A stretch of DNA of 64,000 nt, taken from Gracilaria domingensis (taxonomy: Eukaryota > Rhodophyta > Florideophyceae > Gracilariales > Gracilariaceae). The notes under the pieces are model-generated. The model did no database searches. It had not been told where the DNA came from and was given only the letters and a program-made list of their open reading frames with translations. The stretch spans positions 97,194 to 161,193 of the forward strand of contig VCMS01000109.1 of the NCBI GenBank assembly GCA_022539475.1. The letters run 5' to 3'. This document shows, piece by piece, positions 2,920 through 61,756 of the stretch; positions within the stretch are counted from its first letter, which is position 1; each line of letters begins with the position of its first letter. The position numbers and the translations under genes are program-made.

Positions 2920-3730
2920 TGTAGAACAATCTAAAGAAGAGAAAAACCAGCGAGCCAGTTCGAAAACCTGCTCTTAAGAGATATTCGCGCATCGACAGTG
3001 CACACCGTATCCTTCAGTGTAAGTGTAAATCCAGGAAGACTTTAGGTTATGCCACAAAGTTGAGAAAGAATGGCCAAACGAAAACAAGTGACAGAAAAGA
3101 CGGGCACAGTAGTGTAGATCGCAGGTGGACAATGACGGTATCTGTAGTCAAATGTAGACATACAAAAGTGAATCAACCAAATAAAAATAGGTGTTAATGA
3201 TGCAAACAAATAGAAAAAACAAAATAAAGAACAGAGACAAACCCAAGTACTTGCGCGGAGAGAAAGTAACTCCCGGTAAACAAATATATGTGCACTCTCC
3301 GAGTCACAAGAGAAACAAAAGAAAAACAAGACCAATGATGGTATGCACTGCGTGGCATCTCTTGGTTGGAGCCGGGGGATAACTAGACCGTGCTGCGGTA
3401 ACTCGCTCCGCGAGGAGTTGGAGTCGTCCCGCAGGCGAAATAGTTAGAGCCGCACACCGGGGTACCTTTACTAGGTTGGTGATGGCGGTGAGCCATCACC
3501 TAAGTATTAGAATTAGCGGCCCTGTAGAGGGTTATTAAAAATATCTAAGTAATAAATTAATCTAGCACCTCATGTGCACCTCCCATTCCGGGCAGTCCTG
3601 ACAGTGTCGGACCAAAACCTACGAGGAATTTCTAAAACTTTTGAAAACATTCACTCCATCCAAACAAACAAATAGTGGCACACATGTACACATTCGGGGT
3701 CCGGATGCACGTCTTCGTGCTACTTATAAC
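2920..3730 (-). repeat. 3' LTR of element B, first part
   Basis: It aligns along its length with 26572-27370 and with the reverse complement of about 16340-17187. It begins TG at 2920 and is cut by element A at 3730, then resumes at 15703. The first 60 bp show many G-to-A and C-to-T differences from the right LTR. The last five bases, ATAAC (3726-3730), are the target duplicated on insertion of A. Confidence 0.85.
3478..3500. repeat. Conserved LTR hairpin (copies at 16603-16625 and 27130-27152)
   Basis: GGTGATGG and CCATCACC form a perfect 8-bp stem with a 7-nt loop. The same hairpin is preserved without change in all three LTR copies of this family, although the surrounding LTR has diverged. 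It may be a structured RNA element in the R/U5 region, but that role is inference. Confidence 0.65.
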
Positions 3731-4704
3731 TCTGGGGCAAACTCGGAAGAGTGAAACCCACCAGACTGTCCGAAGGTCCGCTCTCGTAAGAGATGGCAGA
3801 CCAGTGACAGAGCCCTCTGTACCACCGTAACTCGGTTGTAAGGCCGAAGTGGCAACTGGCTATACCTACAGAGGTGCTAGGCCACGTCGTGAGGAAACGA
3901 TGAGAAACTCCAGAGATGGGGTGGCATCGGCAACGATGAAACACGACCAACGACAGGTGTAGTCCCGAGAGGGAAAGCAACAGAAAACAACAACCAAACA
4001 ACACCCACACGCGACGGGTAGGGCCTCCTCGGCACTGTGCCCGGAGCGGGGCGAGATCCTCCAACGGTAATGCACGGGTTTCCTTAAACACGGCAAAACT
4101 CTATACAGAGTCGGATCACTTCGTAATCTAGTTCTATACCTCCTCGGTACGACCCTCAGGTCCCGACGTCAACGACAGATGTTCCTCAAAGGTACCGAGA
4201 GGGTAGGACCACCGTAACCAGACGTGGCTATACTCGCGAGAGTGATAACCCACGTAGGCGGTTGACGCCAGAGCCTCACTCGTGTAGAGTCCACTCAGGA
4301 GAGCGCTACTCGACAAAGAGTTCACTTAGAAGTGCTCGGGTTGACTTTACAAAGGTGCTCGCGACGACGAGGTCGAGCTCACCTAAGTAGGTCTAAACTA
4401 ACTATGTACACGTGGTGCACACCCGCAGGGGTCCGTACACGTGGCTAGCCCAGTGTCAGGCACCTCAGGTGCACTACCTATTGTCCCGTAATATGCACAC
4501 ACACGGTGGTGTAGTACACGCGTCCACCTAGCGGTATTGGCCAGCAATGGCAACCCTGATTACAGGTAACTGTGGGAAAGCCATTCCAAAAGTAACCGCC
4601 AAAATTGGGTCCAACTCATAACTCTTCGAGTGCATCCTCGTATCACTCCCCTGAGTATATGAGGCGCATCATCCTGATAACCACGCAAATTGCGTTGCTC
4701 TACA
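3731..4704 (-). repeat. 3' LTR of element A
   Basis: It is a near-identical direct copy of 14729-15702. In minus sense it starts TGTAGAGC. The other end reads CCCCAGA here against CCCCACA in the 5' LTR, so the terminal CA has mutated. Short open frames inside are duplicated in both LTRs and have no recognisable domain. Confidence 0.93.
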
Positions 4705-4717
4705 TCTCCCCCTCCTT
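4705..4717 (-). other. Polypurine tract of element A
   Basis: In minus sense the sequence is AAGGAGGGGGAGA directly abutting the 3' LTR start TGTAGAGC. This is the expected plus-strand DNA priming site. Equivalents are at about 15793-15802 (element B) and 29647-29659 (element C). Confidence 0.85.
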
Positions 4718-4783
4718 AGAGCCGAGAACGACTTCGAGGCTGAAGTTTTGTGCGAAACGTAAGTACGTAAATACGTCACAGTC

Positions 4784-6637
4784 ATGAGCGGTACCAACTC
4801 CTCGGTTTCTATACCTCGCAAGCGCGATACACACTCAAGCGAACAGAGTATTCAAGTATCCGAACTCGATCACAGTACATCATCTGTCATTCCGATGAAC
4901 CCGAATCAGTTTCCTCATCACCCGACGGGTCAAGCGAGCGCGTCGAACTACCCTCAGCCGGGTTCTGCGACGGCTCCACTGCCTCAGTCTCAACCGATGG
5001 TCCCGGTGAACGTTCCGTTATGGAATTCAGCGCAAGCGATGCCGCTGATGGCGAACCAAGCTGGTTGGATATCGAGGGAATCTCTCGCAGTACGCGATCC
5101 ACTCCGTGATGGGTTTGCGTTCAGCCGTGCACCGTGGTTTCATCCGGTAGCTGTTAACGATGTCACTCTCCTGGAGTCGTATGCCGAAAACGGCTTCCTA
5201 CCGGGCGGTCTGCCGTTAGCGGTAGTGCAATCCCCAGAATGGAAAGTTCGTATAGCGATCGACCCGATGCTCCTCCGGTACGATACCCGCGAGGGTGAGA
5301 ACCTGAACACCGCGCGCGCGGAACACGCGAAGTTGGCGTACAAGAGACTCAGTCGAGTGCAACTCGAGCACCTGGTTCCACCGTCATATGGGTTCGATAC
5401 TCCGTTCTACCGTACTTTCGGTGAAGTCCGATATGGAGACAATTTGGCGGCGTTCGACCATGCGCGGTACGCTGGCGATGGCCCGACCACATCGAGGTTG
5501 ATGTTGTGCTGGAATCGGCCCATACTCCGAGCGGAGTTCCGATATCTTCGCAAGAACGCTTCCCAGGGTGGGTTCGTCAACCGCATTCGGTTTGAGCGGA
5601 AAGCTCGTTCCCGTCATGGGTATCTGATTCCGTATCCGAATATCGAGACCGAGAGGTACAGACCGCAGGCCCTTGTTGGACGGTTCCCTCCTCTACCAGA
5701 TTGGTGGCGTGATGTGGAGGTACCCAAAAGGTGTTTTGTAGAGCTGCCTCCGTGCTTGAGTTACATCGGCTCCCGATTGATCAACGATCCGCGTTCAGGA
5801 TGGTGGGGTCCCTTAGCCGGCGAGTGGGTGGCACGCGTAGCAGCGTTTCTCCTCTGGGAGGCTTAGGACAACTACCGTGTTTGGTATATTCCGCCGATGC
5901 TTCACAGCATTATCCGCTCGCTGGATTTGCACACTCCCTTGGGGTCCGAAGAGAACGTGGATGAGATCCATTACATCTTGTATGTTATCGATGGAATCGA
6001 TTGGGAAACGGTGCCCCGTTCGCAACGCGGGAAAGGTCCCCGTCGTCACTTCGACCGCTCACCCGGTAGGAGACATCCCACCGCAGGAGATTTCGTGTAT
6101 TACGACCCATGGGAGGGTACGATGACGACTAGCGCGTATGCCGAGTGGGCAGCGAACCAGCCACGGTCGATTCCAGACAGTCACCCCGTTGGGTTCATGT
6201 TCAGTGACAACTGGGTCGCCCCAGTGGATCTGGATGATCCGAACATGGATACTGGTGGAGAGGCGGCGGGAGCACTCGTCGAGATGGACCAGAAGTTGGT
6301 GAACGACCTACCGGCGGCGAATCAGGTGTTGCACGCCAGCGGCGGGGTACCCCAGGCTCCTGTGGGTTGGAATGTTCCGACTCAAGCGAGTGATCCGGTG
6401 GTGGGTCCGGCCCCTGTAGCGGCTACCGTTCCTTCGGTCCTTCCGGCCCCGACAGCTCCGGTCGCTCCGGGAGATTCTCCGGCGACCATGGCGATGTTGC
6501 GCGCCAGTCTCCAGAACGCTGGAATTATCGTGCCCGATCATCTCACCACTATGGCAGGGATACTGGCTTACGCCATTCCGCACCCTTCGCAGGGTCCCTC
6601 CGGTAGCGGCGGTGCCGGTCCCTCATCGGGGGTGTAA
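4784..6637 (+). CDS. Extra antisense gene of element A (unknown protein, one in-frame stop)
   Basis: I do not recognise this protein. The frame runs from an ATG 79 bp inside the 3' LTR edge to a TAA at 6635-6637. That is 617 codons, interrupted once by TAG at 5864-5866, where element B has a histidine codon. Residues 1-95 are Ser/Pro/Gln-rich and probably disordered. Residues 100-430 form a conserved block rich in Trp, Tyr and Arg (RAPWFH, SYAENG, LRAEFRYLR, RFERKARS, PPLPDWW, ELPPCLSYIGS, DRSPGRR). The C-terminus is Pro/Ala/Val-rich. Homologues lie at the same place in elements B and C. It is opposite in strand to gag-pol and converges with it across 386 bp of CT-rich DNA. A promoter in or beside the 3' LTR would be needed to express it (inference). 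Confidence 0.85.
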
Positions 6638-7023
6638 GATGACCAGCAGGGCTGGAGGACTTGGTCCTTAGTATAAGGTAGAAACAGTAAAACCATCTAG
6701 TGGTAACTTTCCCTTCACCCTTTTGCCTGTTCTTCACGAACTTGATCGATCTTCGATTACTTCTTCACTCACACTGTGTTCAAGTGTACTTCACTTCCCT
6801 GGTGCTTCACTTCTTTGGCGCTTCTTCTACTCTAACCTTTTTAAATCGGTACAACCGGCATTTCGGTATGCTCTTCTTTCTTTCTTCTCACTTCCTCTAG
6901 TTCAGTCTCAACCGCTTCATTGGTCTTCTTCCTTCATTCATCTCCCACACAGAAGGGGTCAACTCTCCATTCTGAGTCTTCCGCATCGCGGTATAGTTGA
7001 AAGCTCCTCACCGGGAACGGTTC
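6638..7023. other. CT-rich convergent spacer
   Basis: This non-coding stretch separates the 3' ends of the plus-strand extra gene and minus-strand pol of element A. It is rich in CTT/TTC runs. Element B has the counterpart at 18607-18966, with the same composition and a similar length. It may carry both transcripts' 3' ends (inference). Confidence 0.5.
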
Positions 7024-7377
7024 TTATCCCACCTGAGCTTGGTCCAGGTTGGACGGCAAGGCTGACCGAGTGGGACGGTGGTATGAAACGATCTTCGACC
7101 TAGGTATGTGCTCGACCGGCTCCATGGTGTCCTCCTCGGCGGAGTAGCCATACCATCGCACTTGGTACAGTACCGTCCCATCGGGGTCTACAACATGACG
7201 TACGATACGTTCGATCACGTATTCCTGCGGGTACACCTCGGTGTTTGACTGCTCTCCTTCACCCATTGTGGTTTCGTACCTTCGAGGGTGGCGAGGTGGT
7301 GGCCGGCTAACCTCTAGAGGGGTTCCTCTTGGACTTAACCAGTCACGACTCACTAGGAGTTCCTCGCTGCGCGACAA
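7024..7377 (-). CDS. Chromodomain at the C-terminus of element A pol
   Basis: About 117 residues. The middle reads EYVIERIVRH, then YQVRWYGYSAEEDTMEP and HIPRSKIVSYH, the classic chromodomain with its aromatic residues (Tyr, Trp-Tyr-Gly-Tyr) and the Glu-Pro turn. In chromoviruses this domain ends the integrase and is thought to steer insertion to marked chromatin. It shares the integrase frame but is separated from it by several stops between 7378 and 7960. No ATG precedes it, so it was part of a polyprotein. Element B keeps a damaged copy at 18967-19332. Confidence 0.85.
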   Translation of the reverse strand: MSRSEELLVSRDWLSPRGTPLEVSRPPPRHPRRYETTMGEGEQSNTEVYPQEYVIERIVRHVVDPDGTVLYQVRWYGYSAEEDTMEPVEHIPRSKIVSYHRPTRSALPSNLDQAQVG

Positions 7378-7959
7378 CTACAACTTACGCCAGGAGCGTC
7401 CAATCTTCAATCTGAAAGGTTTTTCTTGAAGTACTCTCCTTCTTGAGTTTGACGAGCTTCGGCTCGTCTTGGTTGGGCTTCCGACCGTCCAACGGTAGCT
7501 TCGGGATTCTGAGCTCCCTCTTGCTATCCAGAAGGATCGTCCGTGCGACGGAGAACGGGCAGGGTCTCGCTCGTGCGCCATGGAGGCGGATTGACCAATC
7601 ACGGTGCATATCGCGGCCTTCTGGTTGGCCAGGCGATGGCACGTGTGAGCCACGAGTTACCCTAACAGGTGTCCGTTCGCCTACGGTTGGCGACCGTACA
7701 TCGTGCACCGTTCACGTGTGGTACTCGCGCACGCGACTTACTGTCAGCAGTTCCCCGCGTCGGCGGTGCTTTCAGTACGTCACCACGTCACACAACGTGT
7801 TACTCTCCATTTGGGTGTGTCATGAGTCGTCTGCCACGCGGCGTGGGTGCACCATCCACGGTTTCCAAACTCGTACTTTGTACTTCACCTTTCCAAGGTT
7901 CTTTTCCCAAATAATACGCGGGTAAGTACGACTTCTCGTTTCCTCATACCACGGCGTGG
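7378..7959 (-). pseudogene. Decayed linker between integrase and chromodomain, element A
   Basis: In the integrase frame this stretch contains several stops, and the longest open pieces (7385-7708 and 7378-7653) show no domain. Family logic says the integrase C-terminal tail once ran through here to the chromodomain. Element B's equivalent (about 19340-19930) is likewise degenerate. Confidence 0.5.
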
Positions 7960-9423
7960 TTAACACCGGTCGGTAACATTGAGCTGATCTACCGCTTGCC
8001 GTTCTGCGTTCTCCGGAAAGCCCGGGTCTACAGATACTGTCTTCTCCGCTCTGCGGGTGGTGAACTCACTCAGTTGTGGTGTTCCCGACGGGGTTACGTT
8101 ATCCACAGCGGTATGTACCCCCTGGGTGGGTCGTGTCGTTTCCTGCGCATTGCTCAACGAACTCGACGGAGTATCACCACGAGGTACAGCGCCTCGGCGC
8201 ACCACAACGCTATCGGTAGAGACCGCGAGATTGGTTGCGGTACCTTGCGACACAGTGTGACCGTGCGACGCCGGTGTAACGGGTTCCGTACTTTCCCCCC
8301 CCTCCTTAGGCCGTGGCACGGGAGCCACGACGTCCGGTGGGGGGTCAACTCTAGTTGAGTTTTCCTCTTCGTCTCCCGCAACGGGTTGTGCTACCCGCGT
8401 GGGTGATTCTGACTTCGGTAGATCCGATAAGCCGCGATCAGGGCGGAGAGTCGCAGGGCGCGAAGATACGACCTGTTCGTCCCCTGTAGCTTCACCCAGT
8501 TGGGTGTTAACGTGAACGTAGGGTGGTGGGGCCAGCGCGACACGGTCTAACGATATCCGCTCGTAGAGATTATTGTTATCCAATACTACGGTATCTTCCG
8601 TGACGGAAATAACCCTGTAGGGTCCTTCTGCGATAGGCGAGAGCTTGTGGCGGCGTTCCTTCTCCGGATTATAGTATTCTTTGCGGAGAAATACCATATC
8701 GTCTGGTTTGACCTTTGGTAATGGGGTCTTAACCTTCGCATCGAAGTTGCGCTTATAAGCGGCCTGCGCCTTATCCATAGCTGTGCGAGCGACCGGTACC
8801 ATTTTGGTTAACCAATCCTTCCAAGCGTTCCTGTATAACCCAACAGACGGGTACGTAGAAAGCGTTTCTTGAGCCTCGATTGCAACCGGTGGTGGCACTC
8901 TTGACAATACCAACTCAAAAGGTGCTAGCTTCGTTACCCGGTGGACTTGGGTGCTGTACGCATACGTAATAGCGTCCGTATACAAATCCCAATCCTTAGG
9001 ATGATCTGCCACATAAGATCTTAATGCATTTAGCATTGTTCGGTTAAATCGTTCTACCTGACCATTTGTTTGGGGGTGGTAGGTGGTCGTAAATAGATTC
9101 TTGACACTGAAGATCCGAGAGACCTCCTTGAAAAACTTCGACGTGAACTGTGAACCGTTATCTGATAATAGATGAGCCGGTGGACCGTACACAAAGACCC
9201 AGTGGGTGACAAAAGCTTGTGCAACCACGGTGGCCGTAATCCGTTTCAGCGGGACTGTCCGTACCAACTTAGAGAACCGATCGGTGATAACCAGAAGGTA
9301 TCGATTACCTCTTGCGGTTCTGATCAATTCACCGAAGATATCGATAGCGATAAACTCCAAAGGAGACCGTGCTGGGAACAGCGTTAACTTCTTCGCGTAC
9401 TTACGAAGTTTCACGTTATTCAT
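7960..9423 (-). CDS. Integrase catalytic core and tail, element A
   Basis: Retroviral-type integrase core. The DDE triad is visible: first Asp in FIAIDIFG, second in LLSDNGSQF, and Glu in NGQVERFNR exactly 35 residues later (D-35-E). Surrounding motifs VITDRFSKLVR and TTTYHPQTNG are typical of Ty3/gypsy. After the core come the GPY/F-like region (KLSPIAEGPYRVI) and a long Ser/Thr/Pro/Glu-rich tail of about 190 residues ending in a stop. The zinc-binding HHCC region lies upstream in another frame (9416-10225), so a one-base indel near 9425 separates them. Confidence 0.9.
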   Translation of the reverse strand: MNNVKLRKYAKKLTLFPARSPLEFIAIDIFGELIRTARGNRYLLVITDRFSKLVRTVPLKRITATVVAQAFVTHWVFVYGPPAHLLSDNGSQFTSKFFKEVSRIFSVKNLFTTTYHPQTNGQVERFNRTMLNALRSYVADHPKDWDLYTDAITYAYSTQVHRVTKLAPFELVLSRVPPPVAIEAQETLSTYPSVGLYRNAWKDWLTKMVPVARTAMDKAQAAYKRNFDAKVKTPLPKVKPDDMVFLRKEYYNPEKERRHKLSPIAEGPYRVISVTEDTVVLDNNNLYERISLDRVALAPPPYVHVNTQLGEATGDEQVVSSRPATLRPDRGLSDLPKSESPTRVAQPVAGDEEENSTRVDPPPDVVAPVPRPKEGGESTEPVTPASHGHTVSQGTATNLAVSTDSVVVRRGAVPRGDTPSSSLSNAQETTRPTQGVHTAVDNVTPSGTPQLSEFTTRRAEKTVSVDPGFPENAERQAVDQLNVTDRC

Positions 9424-10225
9424 TAGCGCACTCGGTGCAAGAGCGTCGTACTGCGTAGCAGTCCAATGCCATTGACGGCCAGTAAAAATCCCTACGCAGG
9501 GTCAAGTATAGTTTTCGACCTCCTGGGTGGGCTCCTACCTTCACATAGTGTGTCATGACCAACACACGGTTTTGCAGCGAGTATGGGACCACAATTTGGG
9601 TATACGCTTCGACCAACCTAACCAGGTACCCCTGATCGTTAACCTGAAAAGGTATACGATCTCCTCCATTGAGACGAGCGCGAATTCGCGTACAAAACTC
9701 ATCCGTTTGCTGTTCTCGGATCATCTCCTCGGGAGTGATGGGTACAAAAGATCCAGTCAAGGGATCCAACTTCTCAGAAGTGAGCAGGATGTCGTCACAG
9801 ATGTCATCCGACAAAGATTCGACCCAACCTGCTTGTTCTTCCACCATAAAGCATGGTATGTCCAGACCGTCAACTGGTGCCGCTTCTGCATTTGTTCCCA
9901 AGCGGGAGAGTGCATCTGCCTGCAGATTCAACGTTCCTTTTTTGTACGTAACTGTGAAATCGAACTCCGATAACCTCAAGCGCCAACGCATCAAGCGTCC
10001 TGATGGTTCCGAGATTTCCATGAGCCATCGGAGAGATGAGTGGTCCGTATGTACCGTAAAATGGTTGCCCATAAGATATGGCCTCAGTGTAGTTAGAGCC
10101 CATACAACGGCTAAGCACTCTTTCTCCGAAACTGAGTAGTTACGTTCGTGTACGTTCAAGGATCGCGACCCCAATATCCAATTGGATGTCTCACGCCGTC
10201 TTCCGTGACCTGAAACAGGGCGCAA
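9416..10225 (-). CDS. RNase H end and integrase zinc-binding region, element A
   Basis: The piece continues RNase H (LNVHERNYSVSEKECLAVVWAL, then VHTDHSSLRWLM and QADALSRLG) and runs into the integrase N-terminal zinc finger. The finger is seen as two His spaced as in THYVKVGAHPGG and two Cys in RRSCTEC. Both flanking pieces are in another frame, so two indels about 740 bp apart, near 10165 and 9425, compensate each other. Confidence 0.85.
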   Translation of the reverse strand: MRPVSGHGRRRETSNWILGSRSLNVHERNYSVSEKECLAVVWALTTLRPYLMGNHFTVHTDHSSLRWLMEISEPSGRLMRWRLRLSEFDFTVTYKKGTLNLQADALSRLGTNAEAAPVDGLDIPCFMVEEQAGWVESLSDDICDDILLTSEKLDPLTGSFVPITPEEMIREQQTDEFCTRIRARLNGGDRIPFQVNDQGYLVRLVEAYTQIVVPYSLQNRVLVMTHYVKVGAHPGGRKLYLTLRRDFYWPSMALDCYAVRRSCTECANE

Positions 10226-10710
10226 CCAACCTGTTGTGCACTGGCGTCAGTGTCTACTTCGAATGGAAGTCCTAGCTTAGGCAAAGCCAAGATTGGCTGT
10301 GACATTACTGCGTCAATTAATGCCGAAAAGGCAGACGCTTCCGCGTCGCCTAGGGGTTCCAGTTGAACTGGTTGACCTTTCCTCAAAAGGTGGTTAAGAG
10401 GGGTCGCAATATCTGCGAAGTTCGGGACAAAACGCCGATATACATTACAAAGACCCAGAAAACTGCGGAGTTCCGTTTGTGTCGTAGGGTGTTTCGCTTC
10501 CTTCAGCGACTTCACGCGAACTGCGTCAACTGAGAGCTGTCCAGGTCGAATGATATGCCCTAGGTATTTGACAGAATCTGTGAAGAACTCGCACGTCTTG
10601 AGTTTCAGCGTAATGCCCGCGTCCTTGAGGACTCTCATGACGTCCCGGACGTGTGTTAAGTGGTCATCAAGGTTATCGGAGAACACGATGATATCGTCAA
10701 GATACACCAA
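10156..10710 (-). CDS. Reverse transcriptase C-terminal half and RNase H start, element A
   Basis: It begins with the polymerase active-site box VYLDDIIVFS, keeping both catalytic Asp, then KCEFF-like (KTCEFFTDSVKYLGHII) and LRSFLGLCNVYRRFVPNFA. RNase H opens with FEVDTDASAQQVGCALFQ. It is in the frame of the upstream protease-RT segment but is cut from it by a single TGA at 10729-10731, where element B has a proline codon. It ends at a frameshift near 10165. Confidence 0.9.
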   Translation of the reverse strand: MVYLDDIIVFSDNLDDHLTHVRDVMRVLKDAGITLKLKTCEFFTDSVKYLGHIIRPGQLSVDAVRVKSLKEAKHPTTQTELRSFLGLCNVYRRFVPNFADIATPLNHLLRKGQPVQLEPLGDAEASAFSALIDAVMSQPILALPKLGLPFEVDTDASAQQVGCALFQVTEDGVRHPIGYWGRDP

Positions 10711-10728
10711 GCAGGTCTTCCACTTGAA

Positions 10729-12372
10729 TCAAGCCAAGAGGATATCGATAGCACGTTGAAACGTAGCCGGTGCGTTGGTTAATCCGAACGGCATTCGTTT
10801 AAACCGGTACAAACCTTGGTGGCACACAAAAGCAGTTTTGTCCTTATCCTTTTCACGGATCGGAACTTGCCAGTATCCCCAATTGGCATCCAAGGCGGTG
10901 AACACTGTAGCACTCCCAAGCGAGTCAATGTATTCGTCCATCCTGGGTATGGGATAAACGTCTTTGACGGTGACCGAATTTAGACGACGGTAATCAATAC
11001 AGAATCGCCATGATCCGTCCGCTTTCGGAACTAGCACCACGGGTGAGGCCCAAGCGAATTGAGCCGCCTCTATGACGCCAGCGCGTAACATCTTCTCAAC
11101 CTGAGATTGCTCTTCTTCCCTAGCTTTGGGACCAGCCCGGTATGGGTGTTGGGAAATGGGGCTAGTACCTGGAAGTAGATCAATACGGTGTTCCGTGATT
11201 CCAATTGTCCCGAGGGATCCATCCCACATGGGTGTGAACTCCCTCAACATTTCTCTTAGCTTACCTCTATGAGATTCAGGTACATGATCAAAATTCAACT
11301 GTTCCGGTTCCTTGACAGGGTCTGTATTTTCCGTTCCTGGTGGCAACGCTTTACCCTCGGTGGGTGCCAGCGATTCGGTGACTTCGCTCGCCGGGGTAAC
11401 CGATGCGGTAAAAGCGGTTTCCGCTGATCCCTCCCCCTCCTTAGCATCGGTTATACCGGGAACATCCGCAACGGGTATCTTCGTCGGTAGGATAGCAGCA
11501 GGGTGTGGGAGAGTGGTACCAAGGATTTGGTTTTTAGCTAACCACTGTCGGGTTGTGCCAAAGTTGGAAACCAAAACTCTGAATGGTTTGTCGGGTTCCA
11601 CCGAGATTACTCCGTTCGCCAAAGCGAGTTGCTTCTGATCATACAATGATGGCAATGGTTGTACCACACGTAGACCAGACTGCTTAGTAGTTATGGTGAC
11701 CCAAACTTGGGATTGCGCAGGGATTGCGATGGCATGAGCCACATGGAGCTTAGATGATACCGGGTCGACGGTTGGAACGTCCTGTGCAGCAGGGAGCGGG
11801 ACGCGCTTGCGTGTAGCTCTCTTTAGCGGTTTCCTTACAATCGGTATTTCGGAACCATCATCCATGGTAACAACTCGAGCTCGAGGTCGAATCGCTTCAA
11901 CAAAACGATCACAAAAGTCACAACCGATTATCACCGGTGCGGCAATGCTTTTGCAAACCATGAAATCCACTTTAACCATACAGGTTCCTAATCGTACCAT
12001 GAGAGGTATGTACCCAAGAGTACGCAACGGGTTATTGTTGGCATCCGCGATGTCCAAACCTGGGCCATGACGAATTTCATCCCGTAGCGCGGGTGGCACC
12101 AACTCAAGGTGATTCAGGTTCGGTGCAGTTCCTGTATCCAACACAAACAACTGTCGAACCATGAACTGGTTAGACAAGCCAAGATCGGCATAAACTTTGT
12201 AGTTTCTCTTGGCCATCACAAGAACTCTTTCCGGAATACGGAGATTACGGGACCGTATCCACGGACGACGTAGAACCGAAAGGTGTTCTGAGCTCACGTC
12301 AGTTGTAGCCGCTATCCTTGAAAGGATTCTAACAGCTGGGGAGCGAAGCTGTGACGCCTCGGGCGCCTTCAA
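10729..12372 (-). CDS. Protease and reverse transcriptase N-terminal half, element A
   Basis: About 547 residues. A retroviral aspartic protease motif sits near residue 78 (VLDTGT; LDTGAGPN in element B), followed by the flap and IIGCDF. The RT begins around residue 395 with the usual gypsy lead-in (LLPGTSPISQHPYRAGPKAREE). It then has VEKMLRAGVIEAAQ, SWRFCIDYRRLNSVT, VFTALDANWGYWQV and FVCHQGLYRFKRMPFGLTNAPATFQRAID. The first frame codon is not ATG, so expression as a gag-pol fusion or by frameshifting is likely. A TGA ends it 19 bp before the YLDD box. Confidence 0.92.
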   Translation of the reverse strand: MKAPEASQLRSPAVRILSRIAATTDVSSEHLSVLRRPWIRSRNLRIPERVLVMAKRNYKVYADLGLSNQFMVRQLFVLDTGTAPNLNHLELVPPALRDEIRHGPGLDIADANNNPLRTLGYIPLMVRLGTCMVKVDFMVCKSIAAPVIIGCDFCDRFVEAIRPRARVVTMDDGSEIPIVRKPLKRATRKRVPLPAAQDVPTVDPVSSKLHVAHAIAIPAQSQVWVTITTKQSGLRVVQPLPSLYDQKQLALANGVISVEPDKPFRVLVSNFGTTRQWLAKNQILGTTLPHPAAILPTKIPVADVPGITDAKEGEGSAETAFTASVTPASEVTESLAPTEGKALPPGTENTDPVKEPEQLNFDHVPESHRGKLREMLREFTPMWDGSLGTIGITEHRIDLLPGTSPISQHPYRAGPKAREEEQSQVEKMLRAGVIEAAQFAWASPVVLVPKADGSWRFCIDYRRLNSVTVKDVYPIPRMDEYIDSLGSATVFTALDANWGYWQVPIREKDKDKTAFVCHQGLYRFKRMPFGLTNAPATFQRAIDILLA

Positions 12373-12416
12373 CTTTGGCTCGGAAGGCGCCCCTCCCGTA
12401 GGGGAAACTCTCGAAG

Positions 12417-14553
12417 TCAGTTTTTCTGAACGGGGCTCACCGAATTCGGTGCGTGAACTCCGTTCGGGGGGCCTAACTGAACCCCATGCATGGGTACTTC
12501 GCCTTGAACCTGGTTCGAAGGTGCCTGTGCCGGAACGGAGGGCTGAGCATAAACCGGAACCGGTAATCCCAGTTCGGCTCTGGCCTTATCATATTCCTTT
12601 CGTGGAACAGATTCCTTTTCCTCGGGCGTGAGGGCGTCGTAATACGCAATAATTTTCGGCCTGTGCGACGGCGGAAATACGCACTGCGTCGATACGTGAC
12701 CTGGAAGGTAGCACTGGTAACATATGACCGAGGCCGGTTTGTCGCGAGGGCGATTGTCCACTCGACGTTGTGGTGCTGTGTCCTTCCACCCTGGACGCTT
12801 CAGAGGCGACGAATTGTTAGCGAAGGCAGCGGGGCTGCAGGCACCCGGACACCTTGGGCATACAATGCGGGGTCTTCTTCCGTGCTCGGAATCGAGGTTG
12901 ACGGCAGGTTTGTAGATCCGTAAGAATCGGGGTTACTTCCGATGAAGTGGACGTTATCAGCATCACCGACAGCGGTTTCACGTCGCAAAACCGACATCGA
13001 TCGTGACGAACTCTCCGCGAGTAGCGCTTTCGAGCGGCGCTGGCCCGGGTTGCGGGCTCGATACGTCTCTCCTTCCGCCTGGGCGTAATTAACCAACTCT
13101 AGGTACGTCATTCGGCGTTTTTCCTCGCGTCGGCGAGCGACCATCGACCAAATGGTGGGGTCCAAACCATCAACAAACATGGTACACCGCTCCTGTGCGG
13201 AATACACATTACCACATCGGTGAAACGCTTTGTTCAACCGCGTTGAATAAACCGTTTCAGATTCTCCACTCTTCTGTCTAGTGTCGCGAACAGCAAGAGT
13301 AGCGCTGTAAATCGCGTTGGAAGTCGCGTACGACCTGAGAAGGTAGTTCACGGCTTCCGGCCAACACGTGACTCCTCCTTCCGAGGCTCTCGAGGTTCCT
13401 CGAACTGAGTTGTACTGATCTTCCGCAGTCCCTGTTAGGAAGTACTGCAGTGCCACATATGCCTGTGCTTCACTCATACCGAGTATATCGGCCTCCTGGA
13501 CGAACCTGGCAAGGAAATCCAAGATAAAGATAGGATCTGTCCCCGAGAACTTCCTTGTTTCAAGGATAACATTCAACCTTCGAATGTAGTCCTTCACCTT
13601 ACCGATTCCTCGCGAGGAGCGATTCGAAGTAACATCTTCCAACCGATAATAGGGTACGACAACAGCTTTGTGTAGAGCGGGTCCGTCGGCTTTAACTCTT
13701 TGAGTCCCAAGTGGCGCCGTCCTTTCACGCGTGATCTCATCACTGCCTGAGTAGACTGCGTCGCTTTCGACCGTGTCGAACGTGACCTATGACGGTTGTC
13801 ATCACTATCAGATGAATCTGACGAACTGTCTTCAATCATGCCGCTCGAGTCAGAGCGCGATGAATCCGAATCATAGTGAACTCGTTTTGGGTGTCGACGT
13901 TTCTGCTTCACCGAACGATGGTCTTCATCCGCAGATGGATTTCCTTGAGGAACCTGTGCGTCCACAGCTTCATCCATACGGATTGTATCCTCGAGCGTTT
14001 CCAAGCGCGAACGAATTCGACCGATATCGGTGCGCATTTCCTCGACAAATGCCCGGTACTCCATGACGAAGACGTCTGGGGTACCCAGATTTTCCATAAT
14101 GGAATTCACGTCCGTTCTCAGAAGACGTAAGTCTCCTGAGACATCCCTCACCTGGCCATTATCAACCTGCGTCCTCAACGAGGTAACATCCTGTAGGAGT
14201 TCCACGTGAGCAGCGTGATTAATATCCAAGCGGGATTCCAACCTAGCCAACTCGGCTACGGTAGCAGCGTTAGGATTAACCATGGATAATGTCTCAACGA
14301 CGGGTTGAGCAGAACCCACATTTCCCTTGGGTGCTTCCGTAACTGAATGCGTTCTCCGGGGGCGGGGTACGACCTCAAGAGGTTGCGTCTCATCTGGGAT
14401 AGACCGGGACGTCGGTGCAACGGGTGGAACCGCAGCTGACGACCGCGCGGAACCAGCTCGAGAACCTCGAGGCGGTTGCGGTATACTGAAAACCAGTAAG
14501 CAATCTGATCCAGATGATCCAGTTAAACTCGTACACGAGTCTCCAAAGAACAA
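12417..14553 (-). pseudogene. Gag of element A, two frameshifts
   Basis: Three overlapping open pieces (13594-14553, 12800-13642, 12417-12761) together match the colinear gag of element B. In order they hold a Ser/Pro-rich start, a predicted coiled coil (MVNPNAATVAELARLESRLD onward), an acidic/Ser/Arg-rich stretch and a capsid-like helical region (FLARFVQEADILGMSEAQAY). A CCHC zinc knuckle (CYQCYLPGHVSTQC, spacing C-2-C-4-H-4-C) follows. Indels near 13655 and 12830 break the frame. No ATG is seen where element B starts; the aligned codon may be the ATA in FSIPQPP. Confidence 0.85.
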
Positions 14554-14707
14554 GAAAACTCAATAAACCTTCTCGGTAAACCACCACGTCAGCGGTTCAC
14601 GTTCAAAAGTTGTCAACCTCCAAAACTCTAAAGAGTCCCCTGATCGTTGTCAGAAAACGGTGATCCGTCAACAATCAAGTCAATTCCACAACAGTGACCT
14701 AAAACGG

Positions 14708-14725
14708 TTCTAAGTCGGGAGACCA
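14708..14725 (-). other. Primer-binding site of element A
   Basis: In minus sense TGGTCTCCCGACTTAGAA lies 3 nt downstream of the 5' LTR. The TGG start matches a tRNA 3' CCA end. Element B has the same site at 26551-26568 with one changed base (CCGGA for CCCGA) and the same 3-nt spacing. I could not assign the tRNA. Confidence 0.75.
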
Positions 14726-14728
14726 CTT

Positions 14729-15702
14729 TGTGGGGCAAACTCGGAAGAGTGAAACCCACCAGACTGTCCGAAGGTCCGCTCTCGTGAGAGATGGCAGACC
14801 AGTGACAGAGCCCTCTGTACCACCGTAACTCGGTTGTAAGGCCGAAGTGGCAACTGGCTATACCTACAGAGGTGCTAGGCCACGTTGTGAGGAAACGATG
14901 AGAAACTCCAGAGATGGGGTGGCATCGGCAACGATGAAACACGACCAACGACAGGTGTAGTCCCGAGAGGGAAAGCAACAGAAAACAACAACCAAACAAC
15001 ACCCACACGCGACGGGTAGGGCCTCCTCGGCACTGTGCCCGGAGCGGGGCGAGATCCTCCAACGGTAATGCACGGGTTTCCGTAAACACGGCAGAACTCT
15101 ATACAGAGTCGGATCACTTTGTAATCTAGTCCTATACCTCCTCGGTACGACCCTCAGGTCCCGACGTCAACGACAGATGTTCCTCAAAGGTACCGAGAGG
15201 GTAGGACCACCGTAACCAGACGTGGCTATACTCGCGAGAGTGATAACCCACGTAGGCGGTTGACGCCAGAGCCTCACTCGTGTAGAGTCCACTCAGGAGA
15301 GCGCTACTCGACAAAGAGTTCACTTAGAAGTGCTCGGGTTGACTTTACAAAGGTGCTCGCGACGACGAGGTCGAGCTCACCTAAGTAGGTCTAAGCTAAC
15401 TATGTACACGTGGTGCACACCCGCAGTGGTCCGTACACGTGGCTAGCCCAGTGTCAGGCACCTCAGGTGCACTACCTATTGTCCCGTAATATGCAAACAC
15501 ACGGTGGTGTAGTACACGCGTCCACCTAGCGGTATTGGCCAGCAATGGCAACCCTGATTACAGGTAACTGTGGGAAAGCCATTCCAAAAGTAACCGCCAA
15601 AATTGGGTCCAACTCATAACTCTTCGAGTGCATCCTCGTATCACTCCCCTGAGTATATGAGGCGCATCATCCTGATAACCACCCAAATTGCGTCGCTCTA
15701 CA
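14729..15702 (-). repeat. 5' LTR of element A
   Basis: 974-bp direct repeat of 3731-4704. In minus sense it runs TGTAGAGC to CCCCACA, with proper TG/CA ends. Outside it lies the duplicated target ATAAC (15703-15707). Confidence 0.93.
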
Positions 15703-15792
15703 ATAACCTCGAAGTTCTCAGCGATGGGCGTCTCAATAATTTATGATTGTCACTACCGAAACGGTATCGCTGAGGAGTGTTTGCTCTACGCA
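15703..15792 (-). repeat. 3' LTR of element B, second part
   Basis: It continues the LTR interrupted at 3730 and matches 27378-27465, with shared blocks such as GATGGGCGTCTCAATAATTT. It ends near CTACGCA, followed by the purine tract (minus sense) at about 15793-15802. Confidence 0.85.
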
Positions 15793-15910
15793 TCCCCCTT
15801 CTTAAGAGCAAAGGACCCTGGTTGACGACGAGTTCGGTGGCGGACATCAGTATAAATATCCGACCGCGATGGCGGGTTCCGAACGCTCGGCTTTCATACA
15901 TTCACACCCG

Positions 15911-15994
15911 GACATCACACCAGTCTCTCCAGACCTCTCGAACGCGAGTGCGGACATCACACCAGCCTCTCCAGACCTCTGGAACGCCAGTGTA
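15911..15994 (+). repeat. 42-bp tandem duplication in the extra gene
   Basis: Two adjacent 42-bp units begin GACATCACAC at 15911 and 15953 and differ at a few bases. They encode two 14-residue Ser/Pro/Asp repeats (DITPVSPDLSNAS and DITPASPDLWNAS). Element A lacks it. Confidence 0.8.
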
Positions 15995-16257
15995 CCTATA
16001 CCCTTCCTACTTTCTCCTCCGAAATCTCCGATGTCGGAAAGCAATTCTAACAAACAGATTCCTCCGTCTTCCGGACAGCAGACTCCGTCCGCAGCGGGAC
16101 CTTCCCAGAATACTGGACCTTCTCCTGCTGCGGGGCCTTCAAATCCCCTGATGGGTCAGATTCATATCGGTTTCCGTTCGGTTCCTCTGTCTCCAACAGT
16201 ACCTCTTGGTCAAGCCATGGACGTGGGGGCGTGGAACGCATCCGATCCTGTGCCTAC

Positions 16258-17187
16258 TGTAGAGCAAACCGACAAATCGGTAGAATCCCGTGGGATTGTT
16301 ATCATAACCACTATGGTGATCCCGGAACATTAAGAAGTAAAGCTATGAGATGCACGGATGTTGTGGATCCCGTATGGGAAGGTGTACAGGTGTAATTCTT
16401 TTTATTGTATCAGAAGTTGGTGTACCACTATTCGGTTGTCAGGGAGGTTTGGATGTTGTCATAAGTTTTAGAAATTCCTCGTGGGTTTTGGTCCGACACT
16501 GTCAGGAATGCCCGGGATGGGAGGTGCACATGAGGTGCTAGATTAATTTATTATTTAGATATTTTTAATAACCCTCTATAGGTCCGCTAATTCTACTACT
16601 TAGGTGATGGCTCACCGCCATCACCAACCTAGTAAAGGTAAGGTAACCCGGTGTGCGGCTCTAACTATTTCGCCTGCGCGACGACTCCAACTCCTCGCGG
16701 AGCGAGTTACCGCAGCACGGTCTAGTTATCCCCCGGCTCCAACCAAGAGAGTGCACGCAGTGCATACCATCATTGGTCTTGTTTTTCTTTTGTTTCTCTT
16801 GTGACTCGGGGAGTGCACATATATTTGTTTACCGGGAGTTACTTTCTCTCCGCGCAAGTACTTGCGTTTGTCTCTGTTCTTTATTTTGTTTTTACTATTT
16901 GTTTGGTGCATTACCGCCTATTTCTTTTTGGTTGTTTCACCTTTGTATGTCTACATTTGACTACAGATACCGTCACTGTTCACCTACAATCTACACTACT
17001 GTGTCCGTCTTTTCTGGCATTTTCCCCGTTTGGACATTCTTTCTTAACCCTGTGGTATAGCCTGAAGTCCTCGTGGATTTACACCCACACTGGAGGATAC
17101 GGGGTGCGCTGTCGCTGTGCGAACCTCTCTTGAGAACGGGGATTCGAACTGCCTCGGTGGCTTTTCCCTTTCTGGGATTGCTCCACA
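16258..17187 (+). mobile_element. Solo LTR of the B family, inserted in the extra gene of B
   Basis: It begins TGTAGAGCAAAC and ends TTGCTCCACA, in the opposite orientation to the host element's own LTRs. The perfect target duplication CCTAC flanks it (16253-16257 and 17188-17192). No internal retroelement sequence is present, which indicates LTR-LTR recombination after insertion. The sequence resembles 26572-27465 reversed, including the conserved hairpin. Confidence 0.88.
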
Positions 17188-18606
17188 CCTACCGTGCCGG
17201 CAATTCAAACTTGGATTCTGCGTAGCGTACTGATCAACCTTGATCCCTTGCAGAACTCCCGATTGTATTCCCGGGCACCTTGGTTCCATACGGTAGTAGT
17301 AAATGACGCCGCATTGTTGGACTCGTATGCCGAGAATGGCGTACTCCCTGGTGACCTTCCATTTGCGGCTGCCCAGTCTTGGGATTGGCCCGTGCGCGTA
17401 GCGATACCTCTTGGTCATCTCCGTGTGAGACATGGTCAGACTCGTGACGACGCAAGAAGTAACATGGCGAGAATCGCATACCAACGCTTGGTCCGTACCA
17501 CTGGTAATACCCTCATTCCACCCGAGTACGGGTTCGATGTTGCCATCTTCCGAACTCGCGAAGAAGAATCTTACGGTGCCAACCTGGCTGCCCTTGCGGG
17601 GTGTATCCAACGGTTTGATGGATTAGCACGACCGGTCGTCCGTGAGGAATTGTTGTGCTGGGAGCGACCGTCGCTCCGTGCCGAGTTCCGGTATATGCGA
17701 AGCAACCCGCGAGGCGATTTCTTGCATGACCGCGTCCGGTATGAGCGCAAGGCTCGTTCCGAATTCAGATTCTTGGTTCCTTACCAGAACGTGGAAGCTT
17801 GAGCGATCGCAGCACGATTCCTTCATGGTCGTTATCCAGCCCTGCCCGATTGGTAGGGTATGGTGGAAGTTCTTCGTGGATGTCTCCCAGAGTTGCCTCC
17901 ATGCTTGACCTACCTAGGTTCGAAGCTCTTGGCCAACCGATATAGCGGTTACTGGTCGGTGTTTCTTACCGCATGGATTGCCCGTGTGGCCGTGTGCCTC
18001 CTATGGGAAGGGCATGATCAGTGCCAAATCTGGTATCTTGCGATGGCACTACGGAACAATATTCGTACGCTCGACCTCCGAGTTCCCCTTGGGGGTGAGT
18101 CCAACTTGAAAGAACTCAGATACTTGGTCGATGTCATTGACAGCGTGAATTGAGACACCGTGCCTTATAACCAGCGTGGTCGTGGCGCGCCTAGGGTCTT
18201 CGACCGTTCTCCAGGACGCAGGAGTTACCGAGCCGGTGATTTCGTCTATTAAGATCCCTACGAGGGCGTGTTGTGTTCGCCTGCTCAGGCTGCGGCCATT
18301 CGAGACGCACCGCGTATCATTCCTCATGGACACCCGAGGGAGTATTTCGATGCTGATGAGTTCGCACCGCCGGCCGATCTCGACGATCCAATGATGGACC
18401 ACGATGCAGTAGACGTTGACCAAGATGGTGGAATGGGCGCTCCCGTTGCGGACTTTGGTTATAACCCAGCTATCGGAAATCCTGTGGTGGCTGACCCAGA
18501 AGCGGTTACCATCCACCAGTTCCTGATCTCAATGGGTGTGAACATTCCTGGGAACGTTTCCATGACGGAAGAATTACGCGCATTCGCGGCGCAGTACTTC
18601 CAATAA

Positions 18607-26568: not shown

Positions 26569-26571
26569 ATT

Positions 26572-27465
26572 TTTGGAGCAGTCCCAGGAAGGGAAAAGCC
26601 ACCGAGGCAGTTCGAATCCCAGCTCGCAAGAGAGGTTCGCTCAGCGACAGTGAACCCCGTATAATCCAATGTGGGTGTAAATTCACGAGAACTTCAGGCT
26701 ATATCACAGGGTTGAGAAAGAATGCCCGAACGCGAAAAAGTGCCAGAAAAGACGGACACAGTAGTGTAGATCGTAGGTGAACAATGACGGTATCTGTAGT
26801 CAAATGTAGACATCCAATGGTGGAACGACCAAATAGAAAGAGGCGGTAAAGAACCAAACCAATGGTAAAAACAAAAGAAAGAACAGAAACAAACCCAAGT
26901 ACTGGGGCGGAGAGAAAGTACCGGCCGGTTAACAAATACATATGCACTCCACGAGTCACAAGAAAAACAAAAGAAAAACAAGACCAATGATGGTATGCAC
27001 TGCGTGCACTCTCTTGGGTGGGACCGGGGGATAACTAGACCGTGCTGGGGTAACTCGCTCCGCGAGGAGGTGGAGTCGTCGCGCAGGCGAAATAGTCAGA
27101 GCCGCACACCGGGGTACCTTTACTAGGTTGGTGATGGCGGTGAGCCATCACCTAAGTAGTAGAATTAGCGGCCCTGTAGAGGGTTATTTAAAATATCTAA
27201 ATAATAGATTAATCTAGCACCTCATGTGCACCTCACATCCCGTGTAGTCCTGAAAGTGTCGGACCAGAACCCACGGGCTATTTCTAAAAATTATGAAAAG
27301 ATTCACTCCATCCAAACAACCAAATAGTGGTACACATGTACACATTCCGGGTCCGGATCCACGTCATCGTGCTCCTCGTAACCTCGAGTTTCCGATCGAT
27401 GGGCGTCTCAATAATTTATGATTGCCAATACCGAATCAGTATCCCTGGGGAGGGTGTGTTCTACA
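26572..27465 (-). repeat. 5' LTR of element B
   Basis: 894-bp LTR. In minus sense it starts TGTAGAAC and ends CTCCAAA (terminal CA mutated). It matches the split left LTR and the reversed solo LTR. TTTCT follows at 27466-27470. Confidence 0.88.
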
Positions 27466-29699: not shown

Positions 29700-30670
29700 A
29701 TGGAGATACATAAGGATGCTTCCCAAGACGGGTCTGCCCAGAACTGTTCGGAACCATCAACACCTCCGGTGACAATAGTGAACCTCGCTATATCGAGCTC
29801 TCCCAAGATGACCAACACGCTGAACGCTCACCCGTCTTGAACGTCATGCATGCAAATCTCCAACCCCCCGTTCCGGTCTGTGCCTCTCCCGCAGTCGGCG
29901 GCGGTCTCTCAGCCGGGTTTTTCCGGACAAGATCACGTTCCAGCTCAGGCTGGTCCCGCGCCCGTGTGGGATTGGTTCAACGGCGAAACGCCAGCTATGG
30001 TGGGTGGATGGCCTACTGCAGGCGCGTTGCACATCCGGGATCCGCACCGGCACAGTTTCCTTTTCGCTTATGCTCCCTGGCTTGACGCCGAGGCCGTTTG
30101 GGATACTGAGCTCGGCGACTCGTACGCTGTCGACGGTCAACTCCCTGGTGGGCTTCCTGCTGACGTTACCGGTTCATGGGACTGGATCGCCCGCGTTGCG
30201 GTCACACCGAGTTGCCTGTTCGTAGGTCGAAACGAGACGAGACAGTTTGCTCGCAATGAAATGGCCCGCATTGGGTACGCGCGACTCTTCCAAGCTCCGA
30301 ACGAGCATCCGGTGCCGGCACAGTACCAGTATGACGTGGCATGTTACCAAACTTTCGGCAAGGTCGGCTACGGCGACCATCTAGCCAATGCGTTGGACGA
30401 GATCGACCGATATTCGGACACCGTTCAGCCCCAGCAGGAGATGATTCTGTGGGCTCGGCCTATCTTTCGTGCCGAGTTCCAGTATCTTCGCCGTCCAGCA
30501 CGGTCTCAGTTCCATGAAGGCCTCCAATTCGAGAGAAAATGGCGCTCCCGCTTCGGAGTACAGGTGCCGTACCAGTGTACGGAGGTTGAGCGCATCGCGC
30601 GACATTTCCAAAACGGACGTTATCTGCCGCTGCCTTCGTTCTGGCATGCCGTCGATGTCCCACGAGAGTG
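29700..30670 (+). pseudogene. Extra antisense gene of element C, 3' truncated
   Basis: The ATG at 29700 is 53 bp inside the LTR. One in-frame TGA at 29838-29840 follows the Ser/Thr/Pro-rich head. The frame then stays open and matches the extra genes of A and B: YAPWLDAEAV, DSYAVDGQLPGGLP, IFRAEFQYLRR, QFERKWRSRFG, LPLPSFWHAVDVPREC. Similarity stops at about 30670, and unrelated AT-rich sequence begins. Nothing of element C's gag-pol was found further right. Confidence 0.82.
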
Positions 30671-31426
30671 TGAAAGAAATTTGAAGATTCTGTTCTTAAA
30701 AATTATTGTCATATGTGTGCGTTTCTGAAATACGGGTGTCCGAAAACGAGCAATGTTCTTCGCGTCCTCCCAACGTTTGAGAAGAACACTTTAGCAGACA
30801 CAGAAGAGTACTTTGATTTCGAAGACTCCATTATGCTCCATTCTTGCCATGCATTAAACATGGACGACGTTTCAGGATGAAAGGCCTGTGGTGCATGCCG
30901 TTATTCAATTTCAAAAGGAATTTGCGGATCAAGGCCTTCCTGTGATACTGCCTTTTTGCGTGAATTGGCCGATAGGTGGCTTGTTGAGTGCATTGTACAC
31001 GCGCTAACTCTGGAAGGAGTTCATTCTAAATTTATAAGAGGCAATGACCGTGCATTTCGTCATGCTCAATCTCTGAGAGAATCGGTTATCTCGCCCTTTC
31101 CAGAGCTGCAAAGTGTTCGCTTTTTGCTCGTACTGAAATTGTTCGGGGTTCGCGAGACTTTGAATTCTCTTTGTGCCTCTGGTTCAATTACGAGAAGAAC
31201 AATTGAATCTAGAATTGAGCCAGTGTTGGCCGCGAAGGACCTTCATTTGCATTCTCTGTCCCGAAAACGGCGATATTATGCCCTACAATCTTCAATGCAG
31301 GAAGCGGTTCGTTCTGTAATTTCTCTTTGCAAGTCTGAGCAGCCGGTTGTAAGCCAAGGAGGCAGGAGGAAATTGATCGAAACTCTTTGTCGTCGCTATT
31401 GTAAACAGAAGATGATTTCTACAAAG

Positions 31427-31478
31427 GTAATTGGGTTTTGTCTGAGAAAATCATGTCAGTAACTACTAAACTGTGCAG
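31427..31478 (+). other. Candidate 52-nt spliceosomal intron
   Basis: GT at 31427 (ACAAAG/GTAATT), a branch-like CTACTAAAC at 31463-31471, and CAG acceptor at 31476-31478. Removing it joins protein-like sequence on either side (KMISTK to FRTGHGLRHAY). Confidence 0.5.
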
Positions 31479-32302
31479 CAGTTTCGTACTGGACATGGTC
31501 TCAGACACGCTTATTGCGTCATGGAAAGTAGCCTCTAGTACAGACCGCAAGCCTTTTGTAACGATGTTTCCAGTTCGCAACGAGAGACCTATGGTTCTTT
31601 AAAGCAAGCTTGATAGTTTTGCTCCTGTATCTCTCCAAAAACGTGATACTGATTGTGTGAAGCTGTCGCGAAATGAGTTTTTTTCTTTTTATTAGGACAC
31701 TGAAAACATTAGAGCAAGTGCGTTTGTCCCGTTCAAGAACATGCTTAGGCCTTCTTACTACAAATTTGTCTGTAGCCCGTATTTTGGAGTGCAGTCCTTC
31801 TTGGACTAGTGTCCTTCGTGCTCTTGAGATCGTCATTTCTTACAATTCTATGGAGAATTGTAGGAATCGGTTAGTCGTTGAAAAAGAGGGGCAGAACTCA
31901 GGTGCATTTGATGAGGTGGACATCGGAAATCGACTCGTCACGGTTCAAGTGGATAGTTTTGATATGCTTCCTTTTCACAGTATGAAGGCCTCTGGAATAT
32001 CTTTGCCCATGATAAGCAGAACAGTTACAGGAAGTATTGTGCAATCACGAAATAGAAACTTTTCAAGTATCAGCGAATCAAGAAATGAGGACAAGGTTTG
32101 GCTCTCTGCCACTTCTGTGTTTTCAACCAGGGCTGAGTTTGCAACGTCGTTCACTTCAGAAGGAGACAATTGCGTGCTAAACGATTTTAGTGACGCTTTG
32201 TCTGGCCTGGTGCATTCTAATCGAGAACATTTGCTTTCTGTGTCGAGAAGGCCGAAGAAAAACAAGCGAGGGCAAACGGAGAAGTTCTATTAGCACCAAA
32301 GA

Positions 32303-32349
32303 GTAAGTCTTTGCAAGCTTTTACTGACAAGCTTTAAACCTCATCGTAG
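32303..32349 (+). other. Candidate 47-nt spliceosomal intron
   Basis: Consensus donor GTAAGT at 32303, CTGAC branch-like site near 32322, acceptor TAG at 32347-32349. The surrounding frame is damaged, so the join cannot be confirmed by reading alone. Confidence 0.4.
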
Positions 32350-43130: not shown

Positions 43131-44120
43131 CAGGTAAAACTCGTTAAGGGAAAACTAAAAGGGTGTTCAGTAGACTTGCAGACAAGATGACTGGTGTAGT
43201 AGGGTAATATGACCAACGTCATTGAAAAATAAGTAAGTTTTTGTTTCACTGACATTTCCATGAGTGTGATTTTTTGAAAAAATTAAATCTTCGAAAGTGC
43301 CCTTATATTTTATTGAAAGGCATCAATTTCATTTACAGCCCCATGATGATTCAATGAAAATGGGTTTTGCTAGAGGTGGCGGACGACGTTCTTATCGGCG
43401 CTGCCCTCACGTGTGAAGAACTGGATGCCATTTCGATTTGGAGGTAAATGACTCGCAGTGGGCATACACGCACATTCGTACTGACAACCTTCCAGAGGGG
43501 TGCTCATGAACATGGCCTGCGTCGTGCACATCCCAATGCGAAACAAAGCAGCACGCTCCGAAGAGCTCCGGAGCGTGCGGCGCCGCTCGCTGCAGTGCGC
43601 AGCAAGCTCTTGCCCGTAATGCGCGAATGGCGTCCCAGCTCAACGCGCACGTCCGTATGCCATGCGCGGAGCTTGTACGCGACGGCGGGCACAAAAGTGG
43701 AAACCATCTGGCTGATAGCGGCCTCCGTCGGCGTGACTGGCTGCTTTGGATGCAATTTGGGCGCCACGCCGTGCACGTTTGAGCCGTTTTGCAGGTGCAG
43801 CAGCGCCGATGATTGATACGACGGCGCCGCCGACGCCGGCAACACCGGCATCGCCGCGGCGCGCATAGACACTTCCTAGCAAAAACCATTGTCATTGAAT
43901 TATCATGCGGCGGTAAACGAAATCGATGCCTATTAATAAACTGTAAGGGCACTTTCAAGGAATTTAATTCTTTCAAAAAATCACACTCGTGGAAATGTCA
44001 GTGAGACAAAATCCTGCTTATCTTTCACTGAAGTTGGTCATATTACTTTACTGCATTAGTCAATCTTGTCTGCATGTCTACTGAAAACCCCTTTAGTCTT
44101 CCGTTAACGAGTTTTGCCTG
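43131..44120. mobile_element. Palindromic element with 245-bp inverted arms
   Basis: Left arm 43131-43373 and right arm 43876-44120 are imperfect inverted copies over their full length. Outer tips are CAGGTAAAACTCG and CGAGTTTTGCCTG; inner tips are TTTTGCTAG and CTAGCAAAA. The 502-bp centre is GC-rich and has open frames with alanine/arginine bias but no domain. The structure fits a non-autonomous terminal-inverted-repeat or foldback transposon, possibly carrying host DNA. No target duplication was found at the tips. Confidence 0.75.
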
Positions 44121-54159: not shown

Positions 54160-54393
54160 TATAGCCACTAGCTACGATAGTTATTAGTACTACATAGATC
54201 AAGAACAAACATTGAACTCTTTCTTAATGAAGTCCCTTTGTGGAAACATATGAACATATATGTAGCACTTGCGACATAGTTTTTTACGCAAAACAACAAT
54301 CAATATCTTCAACAACAACAAAACATGATGACGACATCTTCGGATATTCGCTCGTAAACTGCAATATCATAAAATCATAAATTCATGGCTCGT

Positions 54394-57950: not shown

Positions 57951-58050
57951 CTTCAGAAAAAGAAGTAGTAGTTGGATCGAAGTTTCCGCTGCGATACAGT
58001 GCAATCGAGCTAAACTGTGCTGTCCACCCCCACTGTCCAACCACACGGGC

Positions 58051-61704: not shown

Positions 61705-61756
61705 CTATGATATGAGATCTCAGTAATAAAAGTGTCGTGTATATCTCAATACCCTT

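Follow-up and report, generated by a model that had tools for sequence, protein, structure and literature searches.

Ty3/gypsy elements in the genome of the red alga Gracilaria domingensis carry an antisense gene that is protein-coding and kept by selection. As read from the sequence, this gene of about 600-685 codons runs antisense to gag-pol from the polypurine tract to a spacer on the pol side and recurs in several lineages; the window, i.e. the whole 64,000-nucleotide stretch of DNA under analysis, contains it in three elements (A, B and C; Table 1). Its maintenance suggests that the elements need the protein. Tentatively, we favour the explanation that this lineage of chromodomain elements has in it a true accessory gene, the mRNA of which would start at an antisense LTR promoter and whose product would act in the nucleus on its own element. 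The version in which it is the lineage-defining third gene of red-algal chromoviruses, with an unsolved fold, an antisense LTR promoter and a nuclear role as silencing counter or expression regulator, is considered rather doubtful.

Element A and its antisense gene

Table 1. Positions of elements A, B and C and their parts in the window.
Feature	Positions	Strand	Basis or remark
3' LTR, element A	3733-4704	-	LTR pair comparison; U3 side adjoins antisense gene
Likely polypurine tract beside 3' LTR, element A	4705-4719	-	by eye and alignment
Antisense accessory gene, element A	4784-6637	+	translation; 617 codons plus stop
CT-rich spacer, convergence zone of gene and pol, element A	6638-7023	.	sequence
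gag-pol, element A	7024-14559	-	frames and Pfam
Chromodomain frame, element A	7024-7377	-	Pfam Chromo, 6.2e-10
Integrase, element A	7960-9501	-	Pfam rve, 1.5e-11
Reverse transcriptase, element A	10156-12585	-	Pfam RVT_1, 1.9e-18
gag frames, element A	12417-14559	-	zinc knuckle by eye
5' LTR, element A	14731-15702	-	98.9% identity to 3733-4704 over 972 bp
Likely target-site duplication ATAAC, element A	3726-3730 and 15703-15707	.	by eye
Homologous gene, element B	15869-18606	+	several broken frames, inverted LTR fragment inside
Inverted partial B-type LTR within B antisense gene	16420-17187		about 89% to 2920-3683 and 26574-27335
Gene fragment, element C	29700-30683	+	first 328 codons of C-type gene

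Element A has the make-up of a chromovirus, with reverse transcriptase (RT), integrase and chromodomain in its pol and a pair of LTRs. Its gag-pol has breaks, one of them a stop within the RT, and two extra bases separate the ATAAC at 3726-3730 from the match of its 3' LTR. The antisense gene, which is 96% identical to the full-frame copy L002, is itself interrupted by a single in-frame TAG (5864-5866). A stop at 4760-4762 closes its frame before the first Met; of the first thirty A-type copies in the list, most have open frames of 660 codons that extend upstream of this Met across the LTR edge, so that a longer N-terminus is conceivable for the A-type protein. A chance open frame was rejected for 4784-6637: when the 1851 bases of the gene were shuffled 500 times by mononucleotide, the longest open frame reached 325 aa (mean 147), compared to 617 codons. 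Coding by the minus strand was also rejected, with zero frames of at least 150 aa there in 4763-6637.

The initial annotation had placed the start of the gene 53-79 bp inside the LTR. This range holds for the distance between start codon and LTR edge (79 nt in A, 79 in B, 53 in C and 69 in D, counted by eye), but all four start codons lie in the internal region. At its other end, the gene converges on pol over the CT-rich spacer, as had been proposed; an excess of repeated motifs was not found in this spacer.

Copies, selection and linkage to reverse transcriptase

At least 259 distinct places in the window's genome (77.9 Mb) encode the antisense protein, and the gene occurs in at least five Ty3/gypsy lineages (types A-E). 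Codons 1-360 of A served as one query against the genome, for which 114 matches were listed; G. chorda P0002, P0009, P0004, a D-type copy and P0012 were further queries, which added the C and D types. The figure of at least 259 merges the lists obtained with the A codons, P0002 and the D-type copy with 20 of the 71 P0009 rows (those judged neither A nor C type), 2 P0004 rows and 6 P0012 rows. The fifth lineage, type E, was seen in L069 (58.6% to P0001). Intact antisense proteins measure 617 (A), 599 (C) and 685 aa (D). Full frames, defined as at least 617 aa (A) or 599 aa (C) with the matched part free of stops, were found for 53 of the 114 A-type and 53 of the 77 C-type matches listed. The initial annotation had named a lack of homologues in intact elements elsewhere as the observation that would speak against the gene; such homologues were found.

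Of 19 external relatives, 2 carry an organism name, and the named ones come from the red alga Gracilariopsis chorda. Two candidate searches scored about 8000 candidates each. In viral contigs, 20 stretches matched a pattern and none of them encodes a relative. In the G. chorda annotation, two relatives figure as ordinary hypothetical proteins, which, together with the occasional capture of antisense cargo by mobile elements, would suit a captured host gene that is retained for a host-derived function; this origin is very unlikely, given that 15 family members lack a known domain at a convincing E-value and that the gene is tied to RT across several lineages.

This tie was read from the best 150 RT matches, 84 of which have the antisense gene 3.5-7 kb downstream on the opposite strand, i.e. 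the arrangement seen in element A, where pol and the 3' LTR flank an open frame that runs antisense to gag-pol. Control placements among the same 150 gave 3 (opposite strand, upstream), 0 (same strand, downstream) and 0 (same strand, upstream), and 4 other matches have the gene within 12 kb in a different placement. With a smaller gene list, 77 of the best 150 were paired (gene within 12 kb downstream on the opposite strand). For 62 of the 150, the gene is absent within 12 kb among the matches listed, and 10 of these 62 have no contig room on the low side. Three unpaired sites, picked by hand from 14 drawn at random, were inspected: L068 (A type) and L069 (E type) do carry the gene on the opposite strand, and L067 has an A-type LTR (about 970 bp) and adjoining leader where the gene is expected, with an A-type gene about 16 kb from the RT, as nested insertion would give. 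Contig ends, nesting and genes beyond the matches listed account in part for the unpaired matches.

Selection was assessed by dN/dS according to Nei-Gojobori. Pooled within types, the ratio is 0.27 for A (23 distinct sequences), 0.14 for C (11) and 0.32 for D (11). Single comparisons gave 0.28 for the window's C fragment and the C type (dS 0.33), 0.26 for L065 and L055 (dS 0.21), and 0.34 and 0.30 for L062 and L063, respectively, against L055; the window's broken A copy and L002 gave 0.56 (12 synonymous and 21 other changes). In one pair of A elements, dN/dS was 0.013/0.035 for the antisense gene and 0.013/0.044 for the RT. The third codon position accounts for 68 of the 127 variable sites of type A and for 34 of the 52 of type C; for type D, with 50 of 116, the excess is weak. 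As dN/dS is far below 1 and third positions are in excess in A and C, it is the protein itself that is conserved. The same observations make it highly improbable that the antisense RNA is the functional part, through double-stranded RNA or interference with pol, and the protein incidental, although convergent genes can make double-stranded RNA, as PMC7264820 proposes for plant elements.

Between types, identity is 45-55% for the antisense gene compared to 77-90% for RT. Elements A and B share 31, 45 and 57% in gag pieces, 55% in integrase and 42% in the chromodomain, which brings the between-type divergence of the antisense gene nearer to gag and integrase than to RT. Five-taxon unrooted trees of RT and antisense gene have the identical topology, with supports of 0.87-0.89 and 0.64-0.65, respectively, and a chance match of topologies of 1 in 15; the identities of gene and RT correlate with a Spearman coefficient of 0.62 (p 0.06). 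Given the weak support of the gene tree, this agreement is no more than suggestive of co-inheritance. Selection maintains the protein, and the claim that the gene is a stable part of the lineage is borne out by its copy number, its pairing with RT, pooled dN/dS of 0.14-0.32 and matching tree topology.

Selection and co-inheritance are also compatible with an inhibitor, i.e. a factor by which the element limits its own transposition and spares the host, and separate antisense expression would raise its dose with copy number. Copies that have lost such a gene would, however, outdo the others in the genome, whereas many of the A- and C-type matches listed retain a full frame, and we consider an inhibitor improbable.

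The protein and its possible role

Neither L002 nor 15 family members showed a known Pfam domain at a convincing E-value, noting that the HMMER filters remove most matches above E 0.1. In the family and structure libraries, nothing matched beyond weak single hits. Two AlphaFold models have a confident folded core, for neither of which Foldseek returned a match in the PDB; in P0002 the core takes up about residues 87-452, and Arg, Glu and Asp residues are invariant in the protein. The viral structure library was compared with the first model only, and VIA-align covered just the 13 and 58 chains ranked by Foldseek. Foldseek and the family searches yielded no hint of function. In the libraries searched, the protein family is undescribed, in keeping with the initial annotation, in which the protein had not been recognised.

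PRKR-type motifs are found near the start of the A and D proteins and basic motifs elsewhere in five relatives, making seven of 22 sequences; the other 15 lack basic motifs, and 17 of the 22 have a net negative charge. Simple nucleic-acid binding is disfavoured because of these 15 and 17 sequences. No membrane-spanning stretch was found in 21 of the 22 (19-residue hydropathy of at most 1.86), the remaining one being P0013, which reaches 2.15 in its N-terminal extension.

These features bear on a structural or trafficking protein outside the nucleus, either an additional particle protein or one resembling envelope or movement proteins. The gene occupies the place of env-like genes, with pol on one side and the 3' LTR on the other; its divergence between types is similar to that of gag pieces and integrase, and most sequences lack a nuclear-type motif. 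Nonetheless, such a role is unlikely, considering the antisense orientation, the lack of membrane-spanning stretches in 21 of 22 sequences, a gag with zinc knuckle (by eye) that is already present, and the failure to find a fold match. In particular, an env-like protein was rejected, as membrane-spanning segments are lacking in the 21 sequences and the gene is in antisense and not sense orientation; a capsid role, as suggested in the initial annotation, is unlikely because of the gag with its zinc knuckle (by eye) and the absent fold match. Silencing counter and nuclear factor, the other roles named there, are candidates.

In the favoured explanation of a nuclear accessory protein, an antisense promoter in the U3 of the 3' LTR would drive the gene. 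It would sit in this LTR because the U3 side of the latter adjoins the gene, and the mRNA would be separate from genomic RNA, which could give the protein its own level or timing. The product would be a soluble protein, folded in its core and disordered in its tails, with a small pair of helices at the C-terminus, and may act in the nucleus on its element, either by protecting the activity of LTR and chromatin from silencing or by handling RNA or the preintegration complex. The variant we favour is that the antisense protein regulates the expression of its element. A nuclear role would be supported by the basic motifs in seven of 22 sequences and, by analogy, by the antisense protein of maize Grande, which is nuclear according to PMC7264820. 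When the LTRs of types A, C and D were compared, no shared antisense-promoter block was found; a block at the LTR edge and tract is the only one clearly conserved. The 15 sequences that lack basic motifs, the net negative charge of 17, the absence of a shared promoter block, the absence of VANC-like repeats in element A (see below) and the 62 unpaired RT matches among the best 150 count against this explanation.

The antisense arrangement as such is already known in plants and fungi. According to PMC7264820 and PMC11963269, plant Ty3/gypsy elements carry an aORF-3R, with Retand (TRP28, PF04195), maize Grande (GENE23) and rice RIRE2 as examples, and the former source, a 2020 review, describes the plant antisense ORFs as conserved, present in most copies and of unknown function. 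The aORF-3R resembles the red-algal gene in being antisense, located between pol and the 3' LTR, and conserved. In contrast, Retand belongs to a non-chromovirus lineage of flowering plants (PMC11963269), whereas the element here has a chromodomain and its named relatives are red-algal. Membership in the Retand TRP28 family was rejected, as PF04195 was not among the Pfam matches of L002 or 15 family members. The likeness to the GENE23 and RIRE2 proteins, and that to the antisense ORF of the fungal element Boty (Botrytis), is one of description only.

One possible model of action is offered by the VANC proteins of Arabidopsis VANDAL elements, described in PMC10398659 as fast-evolving accessory anti-silencing proteins that target tandem-repeated motifs. 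They share with the present protein that they are fast-evolving accessory proteins of a mobile element, but VANDALs are DNA transposons, whereas the antisense gene resides in LTR elements. Target repeats of the VANC type were rejected for element A, in the non-coding DNA of which 7-9-mer counts are within the shuffle range. Another alga, Ectocarpus, has in Sola1-1 an accessory gene on the strand opposite the transposition gene, encoding a ParB-methyltransferase (PMC12477816); Sola1-1, however, is a brown-algal DNA transposon with recognisable domains, and such domains were not found here.

In the open-licence literature searched, neither this protein family nor a red-algal chromodomain element with a gene of this kind was found. 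The gene represents a further antisense accessory gene, apparently red-algal, whose product is large, confidently folding and under selection, and which is present in many copies in a compact genome. With it, the need for such genes in transposition can be tested cleanly, and the protein is a structural target, maybe with a new fold.

Elements B and C and other features of the window

Homology, strand and position of the gene in the three elements were confirmed as annotated, with 47% identity of the B gene to the A type over 415 aa (17167-18399) and 82% of the C fragment to the C-type copy L038. The size of about 600 codons that had been given for each holds for intact copies elsewhere, but not for the broken gene of B or the 328 codons of C. 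Chromodomains were read in A and B, the two being related with 42% identity. In an apparently nested arrangement at 2919-27464, the older, broken element B seems to have received A (3733-15702) in its 3' LTR: 2936-3730 aligns with 26588-27382 (87%) and 15704-15789 with 27379-27464 (84%), and the 5' LTR of B is located at about 26571-27464.

Directly beyond the break point of element C, 30881-34903 contains plus-strand frames of 193, 210, 239, 425 and 156 aa, perhaps another mobile element; three of these frames (32294-34900) had zero matches when scanned against Pfam. An RT fragment of a different Ty3 lineage is found at 41006-41794 (minus strand; 36% to A, with stops), and no homologue of the antisense gene was found beside it within the window, which, for a mere fragment, is weak evidence. 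Close to it, the frame 42155-42793 matches phosphoglucomutase domain III.

An inverted repeat with arms of about 245 bp (86% identity, about 0.5 kb apart) lies at 43131-44120, and a tRNA scan across the window found none. The frame at 60634-61704, with a match to haloacid-dehalogenase-like hydrolases (Hydrolase_3, 4.4e-13), is probably a host gene. Throughout 52001-64000, C is well above G on the plus strand, with a GC skew reaching -0.44 at 56-58 kb and -0.06 at 60-62 kb.
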